This document shows positions 26,687-57,694 of a stretch of 64,000 bases of DNA, piece after piece; the first letter of the stretch is position 1, and each line of letters starts with the position of its first letter. Position numbers and translations under genes: made by a program. The notes under the pieces were generated by a model. It had not been told where the DNA came from and made no database searches. It worked only from the letters and a program-made list of their open reading frames with translations. Source of the DNA: Thermodesulfobacteriota bacterium (GTDB lineage: Bacteria; Desulfobacterota; Desulfobacteria; Desulfobacterales; Desulfosudaceae); assembly GCA_040753795.1 (NCBI GenBank), contig JBFMDX010000002.1, positions 124,001 through 188,000 of the forward strand, read 5' to 3'.

Positions 26687-27718
26687 CTAAAGCAGGCCGT
26701 GCAGGCTTTTCCCGATCATAAAACAGCCGGCCGCCACCAGGGCTGAAAACGGGATGGTGACTACCCAGGCCCAGACGATCCGCTGGGCCACGCCCCACTT
26801 GATCCCCGACAGTTTGTTGACGGCACCCACGCCGATGATGGAACCGGTGATGGTGTGGGTGGTGGAAACCGGCACGCCCATGTGGGTGGCCAGAAACAGG
26901 GTAATGGCGCCGGAGGTCTCGGCGCAGAATCCGCCGATGGGCTTGAGGGTGGTGATTCTCATGCCCATGGTTTTGACGATGCGCCAGCCGCCGAAAGCCG
27001 TTCCCACGGCCATGGCCAGGTGGCAGGACAGGATAATCCAGGCGGTTTTCATGTCCAGCAGGGAGAGCTGGGTGTCGGCCGGCATCATGCCGGCGGCAAA
27101 CAGCAGGGCCATGATGATGCCCATGGTTTTCTGGGCGTCGTTGCCGCCATGGCCCAGGGAATAAAGGGCCGCGGAAACCAGCTGGCCTTTGCGGAACAGT
27201 TTGTCCAGCGAATAGGGCCGCCATTTGCGGAAGACCCAGATAACGGTGAACATGATGAACATGCCGATGACCAGGCCCAGCAGAGGGGCCAGGGGAATAA
27301 ACTTGACGGTAATCCAGATCTTGTCCCAGCGGATGATGTCCCATCCGGCATAGGCGATGCCGGCTCCGGTAAAGCCGCCGACCAGGGCATGGGAGGAACT
27401 GGTGGGCAGGCCCCACCACCAGGTCAGCAGGTCCCAGACAATGGCGCCGATCAGACCGGTCAAAACCACATAGACAAAATGCGGGTCGGTAGGATCGATA
27501 CGGACGATTTTGGAAATCGTGCTGGCAACCTTGGGGGCGAAAAAAAACATGGCGATAAAGTTAAAGAATGCGGCCCACCATACGGCCACTCCGGGACTCA
27601 GCACCCGGGTGGAGACCACGGTGGCGATGGAGTTGGCCGAATCATGAAACCCGTTGATGACGTCGAAGATCAGGGCGACCGCAACGGTGAAAATGACGAC
27701 TATCAGAGCCCAGTCCAT
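26687..27718 (-). CDS. pit: Inorganic phosphate transporter, Pit family
   Basis: A 343-residue inner-membrane protein with about ten hydrophobic helices. Both PHO-4 family signatures are present: GFHDSANSIATVVSTRVLSP near residue 25 and GVPVSTTHTITGSIIGVG near residue 275; GHGGNDAQKTMGIIMALL around 190 is the third hallmark. It moves metal-phosphate with protons at low affinity. The start is one base after the stop of the DUF47 gene, so the two form an operon; pairing of Pit with a DUF47 (PhoU-like) protein is a known arrangement. Confidence 0.94.
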   Translation of the reverse strand: MDWALIVVIFTVAVALIFDVINGFHDSANSIATVVSTRVLSPGVAVWWAAFFNFIAMFFFAPKVASTISKIVRIDPTDPHFVYVVLTGLIGAIVWDLLTWWWGLPTSSSHALVGGFTGAGIAYAGWDIIRWDKIWITVKFIPLAPLLGLVIGMFIMFTVIWVFRKWRPYSLDKLFRKGQLVSAALYSLGHGGNDAQKTMGIIMALLFAAGMMPADTQLSLLDMKTAWIILSCHLAMAVGTAFGGWRIVKTMGMRITTLKPIGGFCAETSGAITLFLATHMGVPVSTTHTITGSIIGVGAVNKLSGIKWGVAQRIVWAWVVTIPFSALVAAGCFMIGKSLHGLL

Positions 27719-27719
27719 A

Positions 27720-28346
27720 TTAAGAAGCCTCGATCACAATGCCTTCGATGGTTTTGGTCACGTCATGACATTTGTCCGTGGCCTTTTCCAGCAGTTCAAA
27801 GACCTCTTTCCACTTGATCAGCGTGAACGGGTCCTTTTCCTCTTTAAACAGCCTGGCCATGGCGGAATGAAGTATGAAATCGCCTTCCTGCTCCATCTTG
27901 GAGACAAACTTGCATTTTTCGCTGATGGCCGGGGGATCGGTGATCTTGCGCATCAGCTTCATGATATCGCCGAGGGTTCGGGAGGCGTTTCTCAGGATAA
28001 TGGCAAAGGCCAGCATTTCCGGTTTTATTTCTTTTATTTCATATAGTTTGATGCAGGTGGCGGCCTCCTCGATCAGGTCGAGAATATCGTCCAGCCGGCT
28101 GATCAGCCGGCGGATTTCATTGCGGTCAAAGGGCGTGATGAAGGTCTGGTGAAGGGCCGACATGCATTCATGGGTGATGTGGTCGGCACGGGTTTCGATC
28201 TCTTTGATCCTGGCGCAGATGGCCACGACATCGACGTTCCCCTCCGCCAGCTTGATCAGGTACTCGCAGGCCTCGCTGATCAGGGCGTTATGCGCTTCAA
28301 AATAGTCAAAGAAACTCGTTGTCTTGGGCAAAAATTTTTTTAACAT
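27720..28346 (-). CDS. DUF47 family (PhoU-like) partner of Pit
   Basis: A 208-residue all-helical protein of the DUF47/TIGR00153 family. It has the acidic metal-binding pattern of PhoU-like proteins (CEYLIKLAEGNVD, EIETRADHITHECMSALHQTFITPFDRNEIRRLISRLDDILDLIEEAA). These proteins are thought to gate or modulate the adjacent Pit transporter. First gene of the pit operon. A TTACGTAA palindrome lies about 60 bases upstream. Confidence 0.92.
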   Translation of the reverse strand: MLKKFLPKTTSFFDYFEAHNALISEACEYLIKLAEGNVDVVAICARIKEIETRADHITHECMSALHQTFITPFDRNEIRRLISRLDDILDLIEEAATCIKLYEIKEIKPEMLAFAIILRNASRTLGDIMKLMRKITDPPAISEKCKFVSKMEQEGDFILHSAMARLFKEEKDPFTLIKWKEVFELLEKATDKCHDVTKTIEGIVIEAS

Positions 28347-45790: not shown

Positions 45791-47488
45791 ATGAAAATCG
45801 GAACCAAAATAGGTCTGTTGACGGTTCTCACCGTACTGGTCATCACCGTCATGTCCATGCTGGCGAATTTCATGTCGCTGAGAACCAACCATGAGCATCA
45901 CCTGCGGGATCTGCGGACGCTTCTCTCCAACGAACGTAAGGCTCAAATCAGGGATTTGTTGTCCAACGCCTTTTCGGTTGCCTCCAAGGCGAGTTTTTAT
46001 ACGGACGCGGTTGAGGCATTGCGGGATATGCGCTTCGGAGAAGATCATAAAAACAGTTTTCTGGTTTTTGACAAGGACTTCTACTGTTATGTCTATCCGG
46101 AGAAGCCCGACCTGGAAAACAAGATTATAAAAGAAAACCGTGACGCGGACGGAAACTATTTGTTTCAGGTGATATTGAAAACCGCACTGGAAACGGGCGA
46201 AGGGTATCTTGAGTTCCGGGAAAAGGGGGAAGAAACGGCCGAGCCGGTTAAAAAATTGATGTGTTTTAAATATTTTCCGGAATGGCACTGGGCCATATGC
46301 ACCAGCGTGAATATTTCGGATATTGATATGGTAGTGGCGAAACAGGAAAAGATCATGGCCGAGGAGCTTAACGACCAACTCATCCGCTCAACAATTATCT
46401 CCCTGACGGTTCTGATACTGGCCTCTTTCGTAGGGCTGCTGATATCCCGGCGGATCGCCGCCCCTTTGAAAAAAACGTCCGAAATGTTCCAGCAGATCGC
46501 TCAGGGCAGCGGCGACCTGACCGCCCGGCTGCGTGTCAACGGCAGCTATGAAACCGGTCGCTTGTCCCAAAACTTTAATATGTTTCTCGAGAATCAGCAG
46601 GCCATGATCCGGGATATTCTGGTCAACGCCGAAGTCCTGAATACGTCCTCGTCGAGCCTGCTGACCTCATCCTCCAAAGTATCCTTTGAAACCAGTGAGA
46701 CCAAACGACAATCCATGGAGGTTTCCCGGAACACGGATCAGGTGAAGAGCACCGTGCACACCGTGGCCGCATCCATGGAGCAGGCGCTGACCAGTATCCA
46801 GCGGATCAGGGAGGTGTCGGCGGAGATGAACGCCGGCATCGGTCATGTCGTCCGGGAAACGGAAAAGGCCCTTGTGGTCACCAAAGCGGCGGTGCGGCAT
46901 TCGGAGGAGATTTCAGACACCGTCATCAGCCTGGGAAAAGCGGCCGATGAAATCAACAGCATTACCGAACTGATTACCGATATTTCCGAGCAGACCAATC
47001 TGCTGTCCCTGAACGCCACCATCGAAGCGGCCAGGGCCGGGGACACCGGCCGGGGATTCGGGGTAGTTGCCCACGAGATCAAGGGGCTGGCCAGTAAATC
47101 CAATGAGGCCGCCGGCGTTATCAGCGAACGCATTCATGATATTCAGAAGATCAGTGCCAGTACCGTCAATCGCATTAATGAAATTATCCGCAACATCGAA
47201 TCGGTTGACCCGATCATATCCCATATTTCTCAATCTTCCGAAAAACAGGCCATGATATCATCGGAAATCCTGGCCGGAATTTCGCAGATTTCATCGGCCA
47301 TGCAGTCCCTAACGCAAAGCGTGGCCCACAGCAGCCTGGCACTGGAAGAAATCGACCGGGAAGTGGAGAAGATTGCAGGCTCCTCCGGAACCATCCATGC
47401 CGAAAGCATGTCCGTCGAAAGCAAAGCCAATGAACTCCACGGCATATCGGAAAAACTCCGTTCCGGGCTGACGCGATTCCGGATTTGA
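45791..47488 (+). CDS. Methyl-accepting chemotaxis protein 1
   Basis: A 565-residue transmembrane receptor. Helix 1 (IGLLTVLTVLVITVMSMLANF) and helix 2 (STIISLTVLILASFVGLLIS, about 200-220) enclose a single-Cache-type periplasmic domain with FLVFDKDFYCYVYPEKPD and [20 protein letters not shown] domain follows (RRIAAPLKKTSEMFQQIAQGSGDL), then the signalling region with the hairpin tip EQTNLLSLNATIEAARAGDTGRGFGVVAHEIKGLA. Ligand unknown. A leader hairpin covers its ribosome binding site. Its sensor closely resembles the chemoreceptor at 55926-57551. Confidence 0.92.
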   Translation: MKIGTKIGLLTVLTVLVITVMSMLANFMSLRTNHEHHLRDLRTLLSNERKAQIRDLLSNAFSVASKASFYTDAVEALRDMRFGEDHKNSFLVFDKDFYCYVYPEKPDLENKIIKENRDADGNYLFQVILKTALETGEGYLEFREKGEETAEPVKKLMCFKYFPEWHWAICTSVNISDIDMVVAKQEKIMAEELNDQLIRSTIISLTVLILASFVGLLISRRIAAPLKKTSEMFQQIAQGSGDLTARLRVNGSYETGRLSQNFNMFLENQQAMIRDILVNAEVLNTSSSSLLTSSSKVSFETSETKRQSMEVSRNTDQVKSTVHTVAASMEQALTSIQRIREVSAEMNAGIGHVVRETEKALVVTKAAVRHSEEISDTVISLGKAADEINSITELITDISEQTNLLSLNATIEAARAGDTGRGFGVVAHEIKGLASKSNEAAGVISERIHDIQKISASTVNRINEIIRNIESVDPIISHISQSSEKQAMISSEILAGISQISSAMQSLTQSVAHSSLALEEIDREVEKIAGSSGTIHAESMSVESKANELHGISEKLRSGLTRFRI

Positions 47489-47613: not shown

Positions 47614-48774
47614 ATGATGGATCAACAGACGCCCCTTCCTATCCAAACATCCGCCGGAGTTCCGGTGGTGGGCGATGAGATTACCGAAGCGGATGAGGCG
47701 ATTTTCCGGCAGATCATATCCGTCGGATTGACATCCGGGCAGATCAGCGAGATTGTCTCCCCACCGGTTTCCTATCCCCGTCAGCGCCATGTCCTGGCTG
47801 TCCACTGGCATCCCGAATATGTCCCCATGGAACTGGTCATTCGCCGATTGGGGGTCATGTTTCCGTCCCTGGAAACATCTCTGATTATTCCCACCCAGCA
47901 CAATGAGATCATGTGCCATTGCGGCTATGCCGGAGTGGAGGTGGACTGTTATTCCAAAGGATTCAATCAGAAGGTGCAGCTTCTGCTTCACTTCCGCCAG
48001 GAGAAGATCGTCAATGCGCATATCTTGAAAAACATGCTGCGCCATACCTATCAGTATCGCTCCTCGCAGCTGCTTGATTTTATCCACACCCTGGTCACAC
48101 CCAACGAGCACCGCCTGCGGCTTGCCGCACGCAACACCGGCGCCGGATCCGACATCATCGCCTTCGTCAGGGCCATAGTAAAGAAGGTCGGGACACTGCT
48201 CGACCGTCACGAAACCGAGATACCCGGCATCATGATCCGAAACAAGCTGCTGCGGAATTTTTTTGACAGGCTCCGGCCGGTTTACGGAGATACGGTGATT
48301 GACCGGGCCCAGGCGTTTCTTCAGGCCGTCAAGGTGATCGTCAAGGCCGATTTTTCCCTCAAGCATTTTTATCGTGCCTCGGAGATTATCGAAGAAGCCC
48401 GCCTGCACGGGGCCGGCATCGTCGTGCCTCATCCCGAACAATACTGGCCCATTCTGCTGGCGGATTACGATGTGGACGGTTATGAAGTCTGGAATCCCCA
48501 GTCCCGCCGGTACACGGAATTTCTGATCTCGGTTCTGGACAAAAAGAACCGATGCGCCGGACCGTCCGCAAGACGGCTGATGATTTTCATGGGGGATGAT
48601 ACCCATATGGGAGAGAAGACCCTTCCGGCAAACGAACGCAACCGGGAAAAAGCGGAACGGGAGGTCGGGTATCAGCCCGCCTGGGAGGACTTAAACATTC
48701 ATAACGCCCTGGTCGCGGCGGGCTGGAATCGCCAGTCCGTGATCCGGGAATACGCTCTCCGTATCGGAGGATAA
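47614..48774 (+). CDS. PHP-like metal-dependent hydrolase, first gene of the GAK-type locus
   Basis: A 386-residue protein. The metal motifs resemble the PHP (polymerase and histidinol phosphatase) fold: HWHPEYVP near residue 65, HGAGIVVPHPEQYW near 270, DGYEVWNP near 290 and MGDDTHMGE near 330. The N-terminus has no signal. I infer a phosphoesterase or related hydrolase; the middle 100 residues are alpha-helical with no known match. It starts a run of seven same-strand genes with short gaps that includes an amphi-Trp protein, an ATP-grasp enzyme, a kinase and a CofD-like protein. Two ATG codons stand at the start. Confidence 0.65.
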   Translation: MMDQQTPLPIQTSAGVPVVGDEITEADEAIFRQIISVGLTSGQISEIVSPPVSYPRQRHVLAVHWHPEYVPMELVIRRLGVMFPSLETSLIIPTQHNEIMCHCGYAGVEVDCYSKGFNQKVQLLLHFRQEKIVNAHILKNMLRHTYQYRSSQLLDFIHTLVTPNEHRLRLAARNTGAGSDIIAFVRAIVKKVGTLLDRHETEIPGIMIRNKLLRNFFDRLRPVYGDTVIDRAQAFLQAVKVIVKADFSLKHFYRASEIIEEARLHGAGIVVPHPEQYWPILLADYDVDGYEVWNPQSRRYTEFLISVLDKKNRCAGPSARRLMIFMGDDTHMGEKTLPANERNREKAEREVGYQPAWEDLNIHNALVAAGWNRQSVIREYALRIGG

Positions 48775-48798
48775 CACCCAGGCAAAGGAGACGAGAAG

Positions 48799-49065
48799 TT
48801 GGCCAAGGACAATCAGTTTGAATTTGAATCCTATGAGGATACAGAGTCGGTGCAGAGATATCTCCAGTCCCTGCTCGACGGGTTCCGTAACGGTCGGATT
48901 ACCCTGAATTCAGACAAGGAGTGCGTGGTGCTGAGTCCCAGGGGCCTGATCCAGTTCCAGGTCAAGGTGGAGAAGAAATCCCGGCAGAACAAACTGAGCC
49001 TCAAACTGTACTGGAAGGAAGCGGAACGGGATGCCGGCGGCAGAAACATCAACATCATTGCCTGA
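48799..49065 (+). CDS. Amphi-Trp domain protein 1
   Basis: An 88-residue protein matching the amphi-Trp domain: SVQRYLQSLLDGFRNGRITL followed by VLSPRGLIQFQVKVEKKSRQNKLSLKLYWKEAE, with the conserved aromatic and Trp in the last strand. Amphi-Trp proteins are small alpha/beta proteins often found with GAK-system genes. Function unknown. Start is a TTG? rather GTG-like codon: the gene opens with TTG at 48799 after AAGGAGACGAGAAG. The stop is five bases before the next gene. Confidence 0.85.
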   Translation: MAKDNQFEFESYEDTESVQRYLQSLLDGFRNGRITLNSDKECVVLSPRGLIQFQVKVEKKSRQNKLSLKLYWKEAERDAGGRNINIIA

Positions 49066-49070
49066 CGCTT

Positions 49071-50708
49071 ATGCTCACTGAGATTGTCGAAAATACCCGC
49101 TTTATGATCGCCGAGGTGGAAAATCTGGTCCATATGACCCACCGCCTGCTGGTCTCGTATAATCAGGACCAATTTGAAGAGATCAACGACAAGGATGATT
49201 ATGTGGACAATCTCAAGACCGTCATCGAAAACCAGTGCTTTTCAAGGCTCCAGACCATGGAGGAGAGCCGCGGCGAAAAAATCAACGCTATCCGGTCGCT
49301 TCATGTTAACTGCGTCAATCTGGAGCGGATCGCCGATTTTTGTGTCAATATCGCCCGCCAGATGACTTATCTTAACAATTACGATTTCATCAGCCAATAT
49401 GATTACAAGGCCATGTTCGATGAGATCACGGCGGCTCTTTCCAGGATCGTTCCGGTATTTCTTGACCGGGACCTGGCCGGCGCCCTGGCCATATGCCGGG
49501 CGGAGTTTTGTCTTGACCGGATATACAAAACCAACTTTGACCGGGTCATGAGCGAACTCCAGGACAAGAGGGAGGATGTCCGGAACCTCATCACGGTCAT
49601 TTTCATTTTCCGCTACCTGGAACGGATCGGCGACGCTCTGCTGAATGTCGGGGAGGCCATGATATTTGCCATCACCGGCGACCGCATTAAAATCCGGCAG
49701 GTCGAAGCGCTGGAAAAGACGCTTTCCAACTCCGATATCCGCGGGTCCTTTCAGAATATTCATACCCAGTCCATATGGGGATCCCGTTCCGGCTGCCGCA
49801 TCAGCCGGGTGGATACAGGCAAGGAGCAGCGGGACAATCCTCAGGCGATATTCAAGGAAGGGGTGCTCCGGAAAATAAAGACGGAGCGGGACAATATTCT
49901 CCAGTGGGACCGTCTTATGCCCGGCATCGCCCCCAGGGTCTTTGCCTACCATGAAAAGGGTAAAAAAGCCTCTCTGCTGGTGGAGTGCCTGATGGGCTGC
50001 AATTTTGAAGAGGTGATTCTGACCTGCGACGGAGAGTTGTTGGAAAAGGCGCTGTCCGCCCTGGAAAAGACGCTTCAAACGATCTGGGAAAAAACCCGAA
50101 CCGTTGAAGACCATCAGACCGGTTACATGGGTCAGCTGCGTGATCGCCTGACCGCCACCAGGCGCATTCATCCCGATTTTATCCGGGCCGGCAGCCGTAT
50201 TGACGCGTTGCGGATTCCGTCCACCGCGGAGATTATCGATACCTGCGCCGGCGTCGAAGAGAAATTTCCGGCGCCTTTTACGGTTTTTATTCACGGTGAT
50301 TTTAATGTCAACAATATTATCTATGACGCCAGGCGGCAACAGGTGAACTTTATTGACCTGCATCGGTCGCGGCAGGGGGATTTTATTCAGGACGCCTCGG
50401 TTTTTCTGGTATCCAATTTCCGCCTGCCGGTCTTTGAGAGCCCGCTGCGGGACCGGCTGAACCGGGTCATTGACCGTTTCTGGCGTTTTTCCGCGGATTT
50501 TGCCGGAAGGCACGATGATGCGACATTCGGCGCCCGCATGGCCCTGGCCCTGGCCCGATCGTTCTATACCTCGACCCGGTTTGAGCTGAACAAGGATTTC
50601 GCCCGGGAAATGTTCCTGCGGTCCCATTTTCTTCTGGAACAGGTCGCCGCAAGGGCCGCGGCCGGGCCGCGGGATTTTACCTTTCCTATGGAAATTCTGT
50701 TCTACTGA
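49071..50708 (+). CDS. PhoU-like domain fused to a phosphotransferase (APH-type kinase)
   Basis: A 545-residue fusion. Residues 1-215 are helical with the PhoU/DUF47 pattern (EIVENTRFMIAEVENLVHMTHRLLVSYN, NLITVIFIFRYLERIGDALLNVGEAMIFAI). Residues about 255-530 are an aminoglycoside phosphotransferase-like kinase: KEGVLRKIKTERDNILQWDRLMP, catalytic loop VFIHGDFNVNNIIYDARRQQV near 404, metal site FIDLHRSRQGDFIQD near 425. It would phosphorylate a small molecule or protein with phosphate-sensing as a plausible control. Follows the amphi-Trp gene by five bases, so co-transcribed. This fusion is characteristic of GAK-type loci. Confidence 0.8.
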   Translation: MLTEIVENTRFMIAEVENLVHMTHRLLVSYNQDQFEEINDKDDYVDNLKTVIENQCFSRLQTMEESRGEKINAIRSLHVNCVNLERIADFCVNIARQMTYLNNYDFISQYDYKAMFDEITAALSRIVPVFLDRDLAGALAICRAEFCLDRIYKTNFDRVMSELQDKREDVRNLITVIFIFRYLERIGDALLNVGEAMIFAITGDRIKIRQVEALEKTLSNSDIRGSFQNIHTQSIWGSRSGCRISRVDTGKEQRDNPQAIFKEGVLRKIKTERDNILQWDRLMPGIAPRVFAYHEKGKKASLLVECLMGCNFEEVILTCDGELLEKALSALEKTLQTIWEKTRTVEDHQTGYMGQLRDRLTATRRIHPDFIRAGSRIDALRIPSTAEIIDTCAGVEEKFPAPFTVFIHGDFNVNNIIYDARRQQVNFIDLHRSRQGDFIQDASVFLVSNFRLPVFESPLRDRLNRVIDRFWRFSADFAGRHDDATFGARMALALARSFYTSTRFELNKDFAREMFLRSHFLLEQVAARAAAGPRDFTFPMEILFY

Positions 50709-50754
50709 CAATTTGACCGCGGCTGATCGGATCGGCCGCCGGATGGAGATGCGT

Positions 50755-51636
50755 ATGCACAAGATAGGCGTCGTGGGCGTGGCCGGAGGATGGTCCACCG
50801 AAAGGCTGGCCGATGCGACGGAAGCGATGACCGGATTCAGGCTGCTGGTGGAAATGGATCGCGTCCGCGCCGATCTGTGTACCGGCAGTGTCTGTTTCGA
50901 GGACGTTGACCTGGGGGACCTGGATGCCATCATCATCAAGAAAATCGGATCCCGGTATTCCCCCGGTCTGCTGGACCGCCTGGAAATTCTCCGCTACCTG
51001 TCCGCCAGGGGGGTGCGGATTTTTTCCCCGCCGCTCCGCATCATGCGGGTTATCGACCGCCTCAGCTGCACCATGACGCTGCGGTTGAACATGATCCCCA
51101 TGCCGCCGACCACGATTACGGAAGACATTGAAACCGCTCTGGAAATCGTCCGGACTTACGACCGGGCCGTGTTCAAGCCCCTTTACAGCTCCAAGGCCAA
51201 GGGCATGGTGGTGGTAGAAAACAACCGGGAGGCCCGGGGAAAAATCGAACGGTTCAAAAAAGCCAATTCGCTGATGTATATTCAGAAGCTCATCAATCAT
51301 CGCGGCCGGGACCTGGGCGTCACTTTTCTGGGCGGTGAATATTTGACGACCTATGCCCGGAACAACCGCTCATCGTCCTCCTGGAATACCACCACCCGTT
51401 CCGGCGGCGCTTATGAAGCCTGCCGGCCGGATCCGGCGATTATCGAACTGGCCCGCCGGGCCCAGGATCCGTTCGGCCTGGATTTTACCTGCGTGGATAT
51501 CGCCGAGACCCCGGAAGGTCCGGTGGTCTTTGAAGTGTCCGCCTTCGGCGGGTTCCGGGGCATTCAGACGGCCGAGGGCATCGATGTGGCCCCGCTGCTG
51601 GTGGAATACGTCATCAAGTGCCTGGAGGCGGAATGA
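50755..51636 (+). CDS. ATP-grasp enzyme, GAK system type
   Basis: A 293-residue RimK-like ATP-grasp ligase. Motifs: GVVGVAGGWSTERLADATEA at the start, VFKPLYSSKAKGMVVVENN (ATP loop), YIQKLINHRGRDLGVTFLGGEYLTTYARNN and VVFEVSAFGGFRGIQTAEG with the metal-site Glu. It would join a carboxylate to an amine through an acyl-phosphate. The start uses the GGAG at 50745-50748; upstream ATG codons at 50743 and 50749 and a TTG at 50713 are in frame. Its stop overlaps the kinase gene by four bases. Confidence 0.88.
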   Translation: MHKIGVVGVAGGWSTERLADATEAMTGFRLLVEMDRVRADLCTGSVCFEDVDLGDLDAIIIKKIGSRYSPGLLDRLEILRYLSARGVRIFSPPLRIMRVIDRLSCTMTLRLNMIPMPPTTITEDIETALEIVRTYDRAVFKPLYSSKAKGMVVVENNREARGKIERFKKANSLMYIQKLINHRGRDLGVTFLGGEYLTTYARNNRSSSSWNTTTRSGGAYEACRPDPAIIELARRAQDPFGLDFTCVDIAETPEGPVVFEVSAFGGFRGIQTAEGIDVAPLLVEYVIKCLEAE

Positions 51637-52727
51637 CCGGACGGCTCGATCGGCGGTTAGTGACCGGAAACCTCCGTCTGTCGAATCCCGCCGGACACAC
51701 CCTTGGCCTTGTTTTCGGTGGATGCCGTTTTTCAATCGAGTCCAACCGCGGTGAAATCATCGAGGCCCTGGGCGCTTACTTCAGCCCCTTCCCGGGCGAC
51801 AAGGGCACGGCCACCGTAACGGTAACGGTGATCGAAGCCCCGCCACCGGATTTCGCCGAACCCTTTGTCCTCAAGGAACCTGAGCCGGGTAAAAGCCGGA
51901 TCAAGGAGGAGTATCTCGACCTTGAAAACGGACGCATCGTGCGGAAACGGTTGACCGGCATGGTTTTCGTTTTCGGTGAGGGGGATAACCTGGCCGTCGG
52001 CCCCTGCCGGGAAAATCTCAATCAGGTGGTGAATTTCATCAACAACCGCTATATCGAATGGAAGCTGTGCCGGGGAGCGCTGCTGGGTCATGCCGCCGGC
52101 GTCGGGCTGAACGGCAATGGTCTGGCCCTGGCGGGGTTTTCCGGCGCCGGCAAGTCCACCCTGGCGCTGCATATCATGAGCCGGGGGGCGACTTTTGTCA
52201 GCAACGACCGGCTCATGGTAGAAAAGACGGACACCGGACTGGTCATGCATGGCGTCGCCAAGCTCCCCCGGATCAACCCCGGAACGATCGTCCATAACCC
52301 CGATCTCCAGGCTATTCTCGACGCCGACGACCACCGCAAGTTCAAGGAACTCCCTCCCGACGAACTGCGTCAACTGGAGCTGAAATACGACGCCTCCATC
52401 GATGAATGTTTCGGGCCGGGTCGATTCCATCTCCATGCCGACATGGCGGGCCTGGTCGTCCTGAACTGGAAACAGCAAGGCGGCCCCCTGTCCATCCGCC
52501 GGGTCGATCCGCTGGTCCGTACGGATTTGCTGCCCGCCTTCATGAAACCCACCGGCCTCTTCTTTTATCCCGGCAGTGAGTGTCGGATGACGGATCCGAC
52601 GCCGGAGGCATACGCCCGGTTGCTGAATCACGGCTGCCTATGGGAAGTCAGCGGCGGGGTGGATTTTCATAAGGCGGCCGACGCCTGCGCGCGGTTTTTG
52701 CGTTACGGCATCATGCCGGAAATATGA
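51633..52727 (+). CDS. HprK-related kinase B (GAK system)
   Basis: A 364-residue protein related to HPr kinase. The P-loop GFSGAGKST lies at about 168-176, followed by ATFVSNDRLMVEK. It lacks the HprK N-terminal domain, and the substrate is unknown. The C-terminal 90 residues (GRFHLHADMAGLVVLNWKQQ...) are unassigned. Coupled to the ATP-grasp gene by ATGA. The partner for phosphorylation in GAK loci has not been established; the small amphi-Trp proteins are candidates only by proximity. Confidence 0.88.
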   Translation: MTGRLDRRLVTGNLRLSNPAGHTLGLVFGGCRFSIESNRGEIIEALGAYFSPFPGDKGTATVTVTVIEAPPPDFAEPFVLKEPEPGKSRIKEEYLDLENGRIVRKRLTGMVFVFGEGDNLAVGPCRENLNQVVNFINNRYIEWKLCRGALLGHAAGVGLNGNGLALAGFSGAGKSTLALHIMSRGATFVSNDRLMVEKTDTGLVMHGVAKLPRINPGTIVHNPDLQAILDADDHRKFKELPPDELRQLELKYDASIDECFGPGRFHLHADMAGLVVLNWKQQGGPLSIRRVDPLVRTDLLPAFMKPTGLFFYPGSECRMTDPTPEAYARLLNHGCLWEVSGGVDFHKAADACARFLRYGIMPEI

Positions 52728-52740
52728 GGGCCCGTTAACC

Positions 52741-53931
52741 ATGCCGATCAAACTCACCCGCACGATCAGGATGCCGGATCCGTTCAAAATGGCCCTTTAT
52801 GAACGCTCACCCGATCTCGGCCCGCGCGTTCTGTTTTTCAGCGGCGGCAGCGCCCTGCGCGAGGTCAGCCAGTCGCTGATTCGTTATACGCACAATTCCA
52901 TTCATCTGATCACGCCGTTTGATTCCGGGGGCAGTTCCGCTCGTCTCCGGGACGCGTTCCGCATGCCTGCCGTCGGCGATGTCCGGAACCGGCTGCTGGC
53001 CCTGGCCGATACCAGCCTGCTCGGCCACCCGGAAATTCTGGATCTGTTTTCCCACCGTCTATCCGAGAAACGAAGTCCGTCGGAACTGGCCGCTGAACTG
53101 GACCGGCTGATCGCCGGCCATCATTATTTGATCGCGCCCATCCCGGATCCGATGCGGAAAATCATCCGCAATCACCTGTTCTGGTTCAGACGGCAGATGC
53201 CGCCGGATTTCGATCTGCGCAAAGCCAGCATCGGCAATCTGATCCTGACCGCGGGATACCTCCAGAACCGCAAGCACCTGGACCCGGTGATTTATATTTT
53301 TTCCAAACTGGTGGAGGTCAGGGGCGTGGTCCGTCCCGTGGTCAACACGCATCTCCACCTGGTTTCCGAGTTGGAGGACGGCCAGACCCTGGTGGGGCAG
53401 CATCTTCTGACCGCCAAGGGGTTACCGCCCATTTCGGCCCGGGTCCGCCGGATATACCTCAGCTCCCGCAAACGGTCCCCCCGCCCCGCTGGCATCGGCA
53501 TACGCAGCAAGACCCGGGCGCTGATTGAAAGCGCCGATCTGATCTGTTATCCCTTCGGCAGTTTTTACTCCAGCCTCGTCGCGAATCTGCTACCGGAAGG
53601 TGTCGGGGCCGCCATCGCCCGGGTTGATTGCCCCAAGGTTTTTGTCCCCAACACCTTTGAAGACCCGGAGCAGCTTGGGATGAGTCTTGAAGATCAGGTG
53701 AATTGTCTGGTCGAGTATCTGCGCCGGGATGATCCGGGTACGATCAAACCGGAAAATGTCCTGAATTTTGTGTTGCTGGACCGGAAAAATGCCGCCTATC
53801 CCGGAACCGCGAAAACCAGTTCTTTTTTCAGACGTGCCGTTCAGGTGATCGACACGCAACTGGTTACGGACCGGACCAGACCGAAAGTGGATCCGCTGCT
53901 GCTGATCGAAAGACTGTTGTCTTTCACGTAG
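52741..53931 (+). CDS. CofD-like protein, GAK system type
   Basis: A 396-residue CofD/YvcK-fold protein: FFSGGSALREVSQSLIRYTHNSIHLITPFDSGGSSARLRDAFRMPAVGDVRNRLLAL is the nucleotide-binding start. ADLICYPFGSFYSSLVANLLPEGVG and KVFVPNTFEDPEQLGM follow. CofD proteins transfer a phospholactyl unit to F420 precursor; YvcK homologues are regulators. The GAK branch is uncharacterised. Thirteen bases after the kinase gene. Confidence 0.88.
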   Translation: MPIKLTRTIRMPDPFKMALYERSPDLGPRVLFFSGGSALREVSQSLIRYTHNSIHLITPFDSGGSSARLRDAFRMPAVGDVRNRLLALADTSLLGHPEILDLFSHRLSEKRSPSELAAELDRLIAGHHYLIAPIPDPMRKIIRNHLFWFRRQMPPDFDLRKASIGNLILTAGYLQNRKHLDPVIYIFSKLVEVRGVVRPVVNTHLHLVSELEDGQTLVGQHLLTAKGLPPISARVRRIYLSSRKRSPRPAGIGIRSKTRALIESADLICYPFGSFYSSLVANLLPEGVGAAIARVDCPKVFVPNTFEDPEQLGMSLEDQVNCLVEYLRRDDPGTIKPENVLNFVLLDRKNAAYPGTAKTSSFFRRAVQVIDTQLVTDRTRPKVDPLLLIERLLSFT

Positions 53932-53980
53932 GAAGCTGCGGGAGATGGGCCAACTTCAATTACGCCAAGGAGGATGTGTG

Positions 53981-54451
53981 ATGCAGAAAAAACCCGCCGG
54001 CCTGAAAAAAGCAGCGCCGGCAAAGGCAAAGAGCAGAAGAAGCGTGGAACCTGTTCGCAAGAACAAAACCGCGAATCCGAAAAAAACCGTCGCGGTGGAA
54101 AAGCGCGACAATTCTGGTGCGGAGGATGTAATGAAGAAAAAGTCTGTCAGCATGGAAAAAGTCATGGCCCTGAAGGATGTAATCCAGTTTCTGGAAAAGC
54201 TGACCGCCGGATTTGTGGCGGGCAGGGTCGTCGTTGAGGATGATTCCCAGCAGGTATGCCTGAACCCGCTGGAACCGGTCAAGGTGGAAGTCGAGGCCAA
54301 GCAGAAGAAAGACAAGGGCAAAATCTCCATCGAAATCGGATGGCGACTGCCGAAACCCATCATGGAAGATACCGGCCGGGAGGAGCTTTCACCGGAACCG
54401 GCCGAAACCAAGGGGGATACCGGATCGGGCAAATCTTCCGGCCAGCCGTAG
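53981..54451 (+). CDS. Amphi-Trp domain protein 2
   Basis: A 156-residue protein. The first 65 residues are Lys/Ala/Pro/Ser-rich and disordered. Residues about 68-130 form an amphi-Trp domain: ALKDVIQFLEKLTAGFVAGRVVVE, LNPLEPVKVEVEAKQKKDKGKISIEIGWRLP. A Glu/Gly-rich tail ends it. AAGGAGG stands seven bases before the ATG. The same domain as in the protein at 48799, so the operon has two members that differ by tail. Function unknown. Confidence 0.82.
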   Translation: MQKKPAGLKKAAPAKAKSRRSVEPVRKNKTANPKKTVAVEKRDNSGAEDVMKKKSVSMEKVMALKDVIQFLEKLTAGFVAGRVVVEDDSQQVCLNPLEPVKVEVEAKQKKDKGKISIEIGWRLPKPIMEDTGREELSPEPAETKGDTGSGKSSGQP

Positions 54452-55925: not shown

Positions 55926-57551
55926 TTACAATGGAAAGATATTGAGACTGGTCGACTGTTTGATAGGTTTCCCCTGGCCTGCGGTCCAACCGGGTTGCAT
56001 CTGCCGGTTTATGGCACCTGAGGATTTGGCAACGCAGAAAATACTAATGCTGCTCTGAAGCTGCTGGGCCTGACCCGATAAATCCTCGGCTGTTGATGAA
56101 ACCTCTTCGGCTAAAGCAGCGTTCTGCTGCACAACATGGTCAAGCTGAGCAATCGCCTGGTTGATCTGGGCCGCACCGGCGGTTTGTTCGTGACATGCCG
56201 CGCTGATTTCCTGGATCAGTTCCGCCGTCCGGTGAATATCCGGAACCATTTTCTCAAGCATTCGGCCAGCCTTTTCCGCCACATCCACGCTGCCGGCCGA
56301 GAGCGCACCAATTTCCTTGGCCGCTTCACCACTGTGTTCGGCCAGCTTGCGCACCTCTGCCGCCACTACGGCGAAACCCTTGCCAGCCTCACCGGCCCGG
56401 GCCGCTTCGATGGCTGCGTTCAATGCCAGCAGGTTGGTCTGCCGGGCGATTTCCTCAATGATGGAAATTTTAGCGGCGATATCCCTCATGGCTTGTACCG
56501 TGTCCCCAACCTGCCTGGCTCCGGCTTGCGCGTCCCTGGAGGCCTGAAGTGCGGTTTTTTCGGTTTCAGAGGCATTGTCAGCGTTATGGACGATCTTTGC
56601 GTTCATCTCCTCCATGCTTGAAGAAATCTCTTCGAGATGGGATGTCTGTTCAGTGGAACGGTGAGACAGTATTTCGAAAGAAGAGCTTAGCTCCTCGCTG
56701 CCCGATGCCACATTGCCCGAAGCAGTTTGGACCTGAGCCACCACGTCTTTCAACCGGGCCACCATGTTTTTCATGTCATCGGCCAGCATGCCGATTTCGT
56801 CCCGTCGATTAATATCCAAGGAAACGGCCAGATCCCCCCCGGCGATCCGCCTTGACATCTCCGATATCGTTTTCAGAGGGGCGATAATTTTTCGAGATAT
56901 CAACAGACTGATAAACGAGGCCATCAACAAAACGACGATTGATAGCGATGTCGTCTGAACAAGGCGGGTATTAATCTCTTTGGTCATGATCGCTTTGTTT
57001 TCGGACACGATCTGATCGATATCAGAGATGTTGACGCTGGTACAGATGATCCAGTTCCAGTCTTTGAAATAACGGAAAAACATCAGCTTTCTGTTCAGGG
57101 GAGCCTCTTTGCCCTCCTGCGAACGATACTCCAGATATCCCTGGCCGTTTTTCTGTGCCAGCTGCAGGATATTCTGGAACACAAAGCGACCGTCCGCGTC
57201 CTGCAGCTCTTTTACGATGGTTTTTTCATACTGCTGTCGGGTCGGGTACACATAGCAGTAATAGTCCTTATCAAAAACGATGAAGCTATTCTGATCGCCT
57301 TCGCCGAAACGCATAGCTTTCAGAGCGTTAACCGCGTCCTCGTAAAATCTGGCGTTGGAGACGATGGCATAAGCATTGGAGAGAAGGTCCCGGATCTGCG
57401 CCTGGCGTTCTTTGTGCATCAGGCTTTCCAGGTTGTGAACATGATAAGCATTGTTTTTCCCGAGTGAATAGCAGTGGGAAAAGATAAAGATAGCAGAAAC
57501 GATAAAAACCGTAGCCGCATTGAGCAAACTGATTTTTGCGCTGACTTTCAT
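55926..57551 (-). CDS. Methyl-accepting chemotaxis protein 2
   Basis: A 541-residue receptor with the same plan as the one at 45791-47488: helix 1 ([20 protein letters not shown]), a Cache-type sensor with [18 protein letters not shown] and [15 protein letters not shown], helix 2, HAMP ([26 protein letters not shown]) and a signalling domain with [38 protein letters not shown]. The sensor halves are clearly homologous, while the cytoplasmic halves differ more. Start at 57551 fits a GGAG nine bases before it and the paralog; an ATG at 57566 is upstream. Confidence 0.92.
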
Positions 57552-57694
57552 CCGTTCAGGCTCCATGAAAAGCCGGTTAAAAAAGCATTTCTATACTGTC
57601 CGGATTCAATAGCTATTCGGTTTATGTTGTTTTTTGATGAGTCGTTGCCGGAACCGGTTAATCTTTTCGGATGATACCGAAATCACTACTAGTA

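Follow-up and report, generated by a model that had tools for sequence, protein, structure and literature searches.

A complete GAK operon in the window

The window analyzed here is a stretch of 64,000 nucleotides from a Thermodesulfobacteriota bacterium (GenBank assembly GCA_040753795.1, contig JBFMDX010000002.1, positions 124,001 to 188,000 of the forward strand), and it carries a complete GAK operon on the + strand at window positions 47614-54451. Seven consecutive genes lie there on the same strand, as a first-pass annotation made from the sequence alone had described. They encode, in order, a predicted PHP-fold metallophosphoesterase belonging to no sequence family (47614..48774), a type I amphi-Trp protein of 88 residues (48799..49065; TIGR04354, 64.3 bits, cut-off 31), a PhoU domain fused to an APH-fold kinase (49071..50708), a GAK ATP-grasp ligase resembling RimK, LysX and MptN (50713..51636; TIGR04356, 432.8 bits, cut-off 300), the HprK-related kinase B or HprK-B (51633..52727; TIGR04355, 501.8 bits, cut-off 200), CofD_rel_GAK (52741..53931; TIGR04357, 544.7 bits, cut-off 340) and a type II amphi-Trp protein (53981..54451; TIGR04354, 65.7 bits, cut-off 31). 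Newly described here are a conserved core whose hydrolase half is exchanged among relatives, a single type I amphi-Trp protein per locus, and the placement of the operon beside pst/phoU genes in some relatives.

The hidden Markov model search bore out the proposed membership in the GAK families. Five of the seven genes (both amphi-Trp genes, grasp_GAK, HprK_rel_B and CofD_rel_GAK) pass the curated NCBIfam GAK cut-offs, while neither the PhoU-APH nor the PHP gene matches a GAK-named NCBIfam model. Like the NCBIfam GAK system (TIGR04354-TIGR04358), the window has TIGR04354-TIGR04357 together and above their cut-offs. No match to TIGR04358 (XXXCH) was found in the genome of the window, in a search whose control was also silent.

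A single ATGA overlap joins two genes of the operon, ligase and HprK-B at 51633, and the remaining five junctions are short gaps; the several overlaps of the first-pass annotation were therefore overstated. Probable start codons assigned by eye are an ATG at 50743-50755 for the ligase, the ATG at 51633 for HprK-B, and for the second amphi-Trp gene the ATG at 53981, which stands behind a Shine-Dalgarno-like AAGGAGG. A scan of the DNA for promoters and terminators gave site numbers not above those of shuffled sequences (within 1.3 standard deviations). Two genes for methyl-accepting chemotaxis proteins bracket the operon in opposite orientation (45791-47488, +, and 55926-57566, -), and their products are 38.6% identical over almost their full length.

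Distribution and gene order

The phylum was sampled in one draw of 198 Desulfobacterota genomes, with that of the window included. HprK_rel_B and grasp_GAK were each present above cut-off in 15 genomes and shared 14 of them (hypergeometric p 2e-19), so their co-occurrence is not a matter of chance. Of the 18 genomes with a CofD_rel_GAK match at E<=1e-80, 12 have HprK_rel_B. Amphi-Trp matches at E<=1e-6 were found in 34 genomes, including all 15 with HprK_rel_B, and amphi-Trp proteins thus also occur without the rest of the system.

Relatives of HprK-B were collected by a scan of genome contigs, and the best 80 of at least 124 confirmed relatives were all analyzed (loci are given L numbers). 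Judged by record title, these loci come from Desulfobacterota, Proteobacteria, Planctomycetes and Myxococcota, among other groups. The core of PhoU-APH, ATP-grasp ligase and HprK-B is kept across the 80 relatives. Among loci with the genes in view, 72 of 76 have the ligase upstream of HprK-B, and 65 of 69 have PhoU-APH there. The ligase and HprK-B frames are no more than 50 bp apart in 73 of 74 loci, a count used in place of overlaps because frames were begun at the first possible start and overlaps are thereby overcounted. The conservation of gene order proposed as a check on the annotation was thus found. Neighboring genes were identified with Pfam on one example per family and by phmmer similarity for the others. 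One uncultured genome, AM4_bin-625, holds two diverged GAK operons (L045 and L070), and the L070 stretch showed no CofD-like gene.

The PHP-fold gene and its replacement by other hydrolases

The product of the first gene matched nothing in NCBIfam (E<=0.01) or Pfam (E<=0.1) and nothing credible among PDB sequences, where one match at E 0.54 was a ribosomal protein. Its AlphaFold2 model has a mean predicted local distance difference test (pLDDT) score of 92. The best Foldseek matches of the model were 3e0f, RNase AM and 3o0f, with E about 1e-5, and VIA gave Z scores of 15.9 for 3e0f, 14.9 for RNase AM and 14.0 for 2yb1; on 3e0f, 243 residues were aligned with a root-mean-square deviation of 3.4. 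Six residues, H64, H66, H96, H273, D329 and H331, do not vary among 27 aligned sequences, and they make up candidate metal motifs picked out by eye, H64-W-H66, H96, H273 and D329-T-H331. The window protein shares its predicted fold and, by eye, HxH and DxH motifs with the PHP phosphoesterases RNase AM/YciV, 2yb1 and 3e0f. Unlike them it has no Pfam or NCBIfam family and no PDB sequence match of note, and it has an extended run of helix at roughly residues 136-245. We predict from the model that it is a PHP-fold metallophosphoesterase, and the earlier guess of a PHP-like hydrolase and putative phosphoesterase is upheld by fold where no sequence family was matched.

Of the 80 loci, 34 have the PHP gene, and among the 65 whose upstream sequence reaches far enough the count is 33. 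Another 33 loci, for the most part proteobacterial, carry in its stead one or more of four different gene clusters, represented by a Nudix hydrolase (L079), a Nudix protein fused to SixA, a histidine phosphatase and a calcineurin-like phosphoesterase (L082). PHP and this phosphatase cassette were found together in none of the 80 loci, and 13 had neither, in several cases since the contig breaks off. On this pattern the hydrolase half of the GAK operon is exchanged among relatives, with PHP on one side and a Nudix/SixA/histidine-phosphatase/metallophosphatase cassette on the other. The proteobacterial form with the cassette, described here, departs from the NCBIfam GAK set.

The kinases, the ligase and the CofD-like protein

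The kinase fusion named in the first-pass annotation passes both Pfam cut-offs, for PhoU with 79.5 bits (cut-off 23.5; E 2.5e-22) and for APH with 31.9 bits (cut-off 23.2; E 1.4e-7). Its PDB matches include the PhoU structure 4q25 (1.3e-21) and also APH(3'). The APH half has the motifs HGDFN and IDLHR and retains the kinase residues HGD, a pair of Asn and the Asp further on; H408, G409, D410, N415 and D429 (numbered from 49071) are invariant in 35 aligned sequences. The gene is split in two frames in a tubeworm endosymbiont (L087:7131-9052), the related L083 being whole, and also in Marinomonas (L078:7428-9097), both splits being due to decay or assembly error.

The ligase aligns with RimK over its full length (4iwx, 7e-23) and also matches LysX and the alpha-L-glutamate ligase 7qyr in the PDB. 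As do RimK, LysX and MptN, it retains both metal residues, Asp and Glu, and passes the RimK domain PF08443 (47.2 bits against 21). Its best non-GAK NCBIfam match is MptN, at 158 bits under a cut-off of 350, and a weak match to CofF reached 28 bits. It differs from RimK and LysX in reading E-V-S where they read E-V-N, and Ser276 (numbered from 50713) is invariant in 34 aligned sequences; the Asn of the RimK E-V-N motif has a metal-binding role. A role as an inositol-pyrophosphate kinase was rejected, the 13 PDB sequences at E<=0.001 being RimK/LysX-type ligases or ATP-grasp proteins with no ITPK or PPIP5K named among them.

In HprK-B the Walker A motif GFSGAGKS, H158 and D197 (numbered from 51618) are invariant in 41 aligned sequences. 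The protein has the kinase core and Walker A motif of HprK and, as HprK has HPr, a small partner gene alongside. Its PDB match to HprK covers the kinase core only (4e-5), and it scores 28.8 bits against the cut-off of 240 for the full-length HprK equivalog. The partner also differs, since the amphi-Trp profile finds no HPr and the amphi-Trp model no known fold.

CofD_rel_GAK passes PF01933 and resembles YvcK/GlmR (UPF0052). Its PDB matches are all UPF0052/YvcK-type chains (2ppv at 4e-34, 2o2z, 2hzb, 2p0y and 2q7x), with nothing else at E<=0.01. It falls short of the YvcK subfamily TIGR01826, with 107.3 bits against a cut-off of 196. By motif, then, the kinases, the ligase and the CofD-like protein look competent.

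Amphi-Trp and XXXCH proteins

Two kinds of amphi-Trp protein, which the first-pass annotation had not told apart, are encoded in the window, and a third was seen in relatives. Type I proteins are about 90 residues long and have an N-terminal FxHESLQD-like motif. The window protein has the version FEFESYED, together with a helix, four strands and Trp72. Conservation of the motif was counted over 93 GAK loci (the 80 relatives, 12 further loci and the window), with type I proteins chosen by positions 7 and 14 and not by position 11. There were 78 type I proteins in 78 of the 93 loci and never two per locus. At position 11, 76 of them have Ser, one has Thr and one has Ala. One alignment was picked by a pattern demanding Ser or Thr at position 11, and its invariance there is no evidence. 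No type I protein was seen in a small comparison set of 14 loci outside GAK, 10 with an amphi-Trp match and 4 with CofD_rel_GAK alone.

The last residue of type I proteins is of 13 different kinds among the 78 (a few may be cut at contig ends). The type I C-terminus is accordingly disfavored as an acceptor of the RimK/LysW type. The type I model, with a pLDDT of 86, shows a helix and then four strands. What we took by eye to be a resemblance of gammaproteobacterial type I proteins to the Ser46 region of HPr was not borne out by profile or model, and type I as an HPr homologue was dropped; a profile of 52 sequences brought up no PDB chain of HPr at E<=10.

Type II proteins number 0-3 per locus and have low-complexity tails, those of the window, L063 and L068 being rich in Lys, Ala and Pro. 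In the window protein this tail is N-terminal, and an acidic tail follows at the C-terminus. The third kind carries an XXXCH domain and comprises nine cluster members and one look-alike in L127. Both cluster members scanned, from L038 and L045, pass the TIGR04358 cut-off, and in L048 amphi-Trp and XXXCH occur within one protein that is also above it. The ten XXXCH-type proteins end in CHxxxK (8) or CHxxxD (2). Such uniform C-termini make XXXCH proteins, where present, a better candidate ligase acceptor than type I. In genomes without HprK_rel_B above cut-off, at L113 and L114, a lone amphi-Trp gene of 68-69 codons stands beside genes that are QueD/QueE-like by eye.

Placement beside phosphate genes

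Standalone pst or phoU genes, a connection absent from the first-pass annotation, were found in 8 of the 80 loci (L038, L041, L047, L060, L076, L080, L100 and L106) and in 2 of the 12 further loci (L132 and L136). In five of them (L038, L041, L047, L100 and L106) these genes are directly beside or inside the GAK operon and on the same strand. All or part of pstSCAB-phoU leads straight into the operon in L038, L041, L047 and L100, with an XXXCH gene standing first in L038 and L041; L106 has an extra phoU inside the operon. L060 has phoBR and then pstSCAB-phoU after the operon, with phoB no more than 1 kb and pst 4 kb away, and in L076 and L080 pstS is about 10 kb from HprK-B on the opposite strand. 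A rough Poisson estimate for five loci within 1 kb gave p 1e-8, or 3e-5 at a fivefold background rate, where the background of one pst operon per 1.2 Mb comes from a single occurrence in 60 windows. CofD_rel_GAK without the rest of the system also lies behind pstSCAB-phoU in L122. One GAK kinase is itself half PhoU, which counts toward the same connection.

This placement is a stronger point than density. By density, 10 of 92 loci have pst/phoU genes, and a background of 60 windows of 20 kb, spaced evenly over seven related genomes, gave a single case (Fisher p 0.028). Pho-box-like sites matching at least 12 of 14 positions precede the first GAK gene in 5 of the 67 loci scored (L058, L079, L096, L099 and L107) and none of 183 control genes (p 0.001); at 11 or more of 14 the counts were 9/67 and 8/183 (p 0.016). 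The threshold for these counts was not fixed beforehand, and the consensus is the enterobacterial one.

Several results weigh against a link to phosphate. The background windows come from one phylum, whereas the 80 loci span many. Counting only loci whose flanks are complete, together with the 12 further loci, the density test gave p 0.06, and 72 of the 80 relatives show no pst/phoU gene in the fetched flanks. In the window itself, the best Pho-box-like site upstream of 47614 matches the enterobacterial consensus at 9 of 14 positions. Similarity queries found a Pit gene, 20 kb from the operon, as the only phosphate gene in the window besides PhoU-APH. On balance we consider it somewhat more likely than not that the GAK system is linked to phosphate status, a conclusion with moderate support that rests on the relatives and not on the window.

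Other neighbors were also recorded. The Pit-type transporter of the window (26687-28346, -) scores 110 bits to the Pit of L080 and adjoins a gene that is DUF47/PhoU-like by eye. A lone CofD_rel_GAK gene with a Pit gene about 2 kb off occurs at L123:5941-7188 (-), L124:6024-7370 (+) and L125:5796-6980 (-), where it adjoins a conserved protein that is 3'-5' exonuclease-like by eye. CHAD genes adjoin genes for ParA-like ATPases at L076:1397-3785, L080:1589-3911, L089:7705-10478 and L099:4300-7094, and this pair (with CYTH in L089 and L099) is perhaps a set for partitioning polyphosphate granules. A cluster of family-4 glycosyltransferases, possibly for glycolipid synthesis during phosphate starvation, lies near the operon in six loci (L036, L037, L045, L060, L072 and L086); the 828-residue L036 member begins with a stretch, LHVHS, that is PHP-like by eye, and Pfam sees the transferase only. 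Magnesium transporters are near the operon in 7 of the 80 loci, without enrichment in the tested subset (4/61 against 2/60, p 0.35).

Discussion

The reading that we favor, and hold tentatively, is that the complete GAK operon runs a reversible modification cycle linked to phosphate status, in which the type I amphi-Trp protein is the substrate of HprK-B; the substrate and the chemistry are inferred. Phosphate status would be sensed by the PhoU half of the fused kinase. HprK-B, like HPr kinase, would phosphorylate the type I protein, with Ser11 in the FxHESLQD motif as the likeliest site. The ATP-grasp enzyme, being RimK-like, may join an amino acid, probably glutamate, to a carboxylate on some partner, not at the C-terminus of type I but perhaps on the XXXCH protein in loci that have one. 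Reversal of the phosphorylation would fall to the PHP phosphoesterase or, among Proteobacteria, to the Nudix/SixA/metallophosphatase cassette, and the YvcK-like CofD relative might report a nucleotide-sugar signal.

A cycle of synthesis, phosphorylation and removal had been suggested in the first-pass annotation, and it is partly supported overall. It fits the anatomy of the operon and is strengthened by the exchange of the hydrolase half for other phosphatases in relatives. The suggestion that small amphi-Trp proteins are the target gains indirect support for type I only, and the variable type I C-termini oppose C-terminal tagging in the manner of RimK.

Other observations count against the favored cycle. 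Ser11 is Ala in the type I protein of L067. Foldseek found no match at E<=0.001 for the type I model in the PDB, nor among the viral models of BFVD. With no HPr by profile and no PDB fold match, homology of type I to HPr is not supported. The distribution of PHP and cassette tracks phylogeny, and the exchange therefore does not amount to many independent events. Nudix and Ap4A-hydrolase-like enzymes usually act on small molecules.

In the strongest alternative, the product that the operon builds and breaks down is a small phosphorylated compound, such as a messenger or a cofactor, which might be pyrophosphorylated or glutamylated, and amphi-Trp proteins serve as receptors or carriers for it. 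Small molecules are the usual substrates of APH kinases. MptN, the best non-GAK match of the ligase, is a small-molecule glutamate ligase, as the weak match to CofF would also suit, and the exchanged hydrolases are of Nudix, SixA-Nudix, ApaH-like and PHP types, the PHP protein being structurally near 2yb1, which was solved with AMP and phosphate. The 13 kinds of type I C-terminal residue would be poor ligation sites. A mere receptor would have no need, however, of being present once per locus with a conserved serine motif, and HPr kinase itself phosphorylates a protein. We regard this alternative as possible but unlikely.

Less is to be expected of a role in handling a phosphate store such as polyphosphate granules, with amphi-Trp proteins coating or positioning the store and the kinases and hydrolases tuning it. 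Three papers describe polyphosphate binding by CHAD domains (PMC6537752), an association of AlgP with polyphosphate granules (PMC9239181), and granules in Desulfovibrio alaskensis G20 that form with ample phosphate and are absent when it is limited (PMC5193443). The Lys/Ala/Pro-rich type II tails of the window, L063 and L068 recall AlgP as described there (PMC9239181), and the CHAD and ParA-like genes near the operon in L076, L080, L089 and L099 are accompanied by PPK1 in L076 and L080, CYTH in L089 and L099, and Pit and DUF47 in L080. Against this, those four loci are, by record title, all from Gammaproteobacteria and two are closely alike. Coupling to PPK or CHAD within the phylum was not found: PPK1, PPK2 or CHAD occurs in 0 of the 15 HprK_rel_B genomes, compared to at least one of them in 25 of the 198 (p 0.12), so that they are neither linked to HprK_rel_B nor clearly exclusive of it. 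A storage role seems improbable to us.

HprK/Crh/YvcK of Firmicutes exert carbon and envelope control, and a parallel module with incidental phosphate neighbors would explain why an HprK-like kinase and a YvcK-like protein share one operon and perhaps why MurA lies 2 kb upstream of it in the window, but it is very doubtful, since neighbor clustering gave this MurA no counterpart in the other 80 loci, the PhoU fusion and the pst adjacency are left unexplained, and lone CofD_rel_GAK genes adjoin pst and Pit genes.

The modification cycle linked to phosphate status can be taken one step further, as a speculation to which we attach little weight. GAK might be an unrecognized phosphate-status relay, apart from PhoR/PhoB and from SPX-inositol pyrophosphate signaling. 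Its PhoU-domain and HprK-type kinases, possibly reading phosphate or pyrophosphate, would set partner phosphorylation and, through the RimK-type ligase, acylation, chiefly of type I amphi-Trp, and these partners would control phosphate storage in sulfate reducers without PPK1/PPK2.

The GAK families are named and occur across many phyla, and their function is absent from searchable papers. A full-text search with the family names, accessions and system name, to which most subscription journals and bioRxiv were out of reach, returned no paper, in agreement with the first-pass annotation, which knew of no established function. The operon beside phosphate-uptake genes in some relatives is a first testable clue to the role of GAK. 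A phosphate link, a single partner with a candidate phosphosite and two interchangeable hydrolase halves make specific tests possible in marine bacteria and sulfate reducers that can be cultured. If true, the phosphate link would add a new control of the phosphate economy in anoxic and marine habitats.

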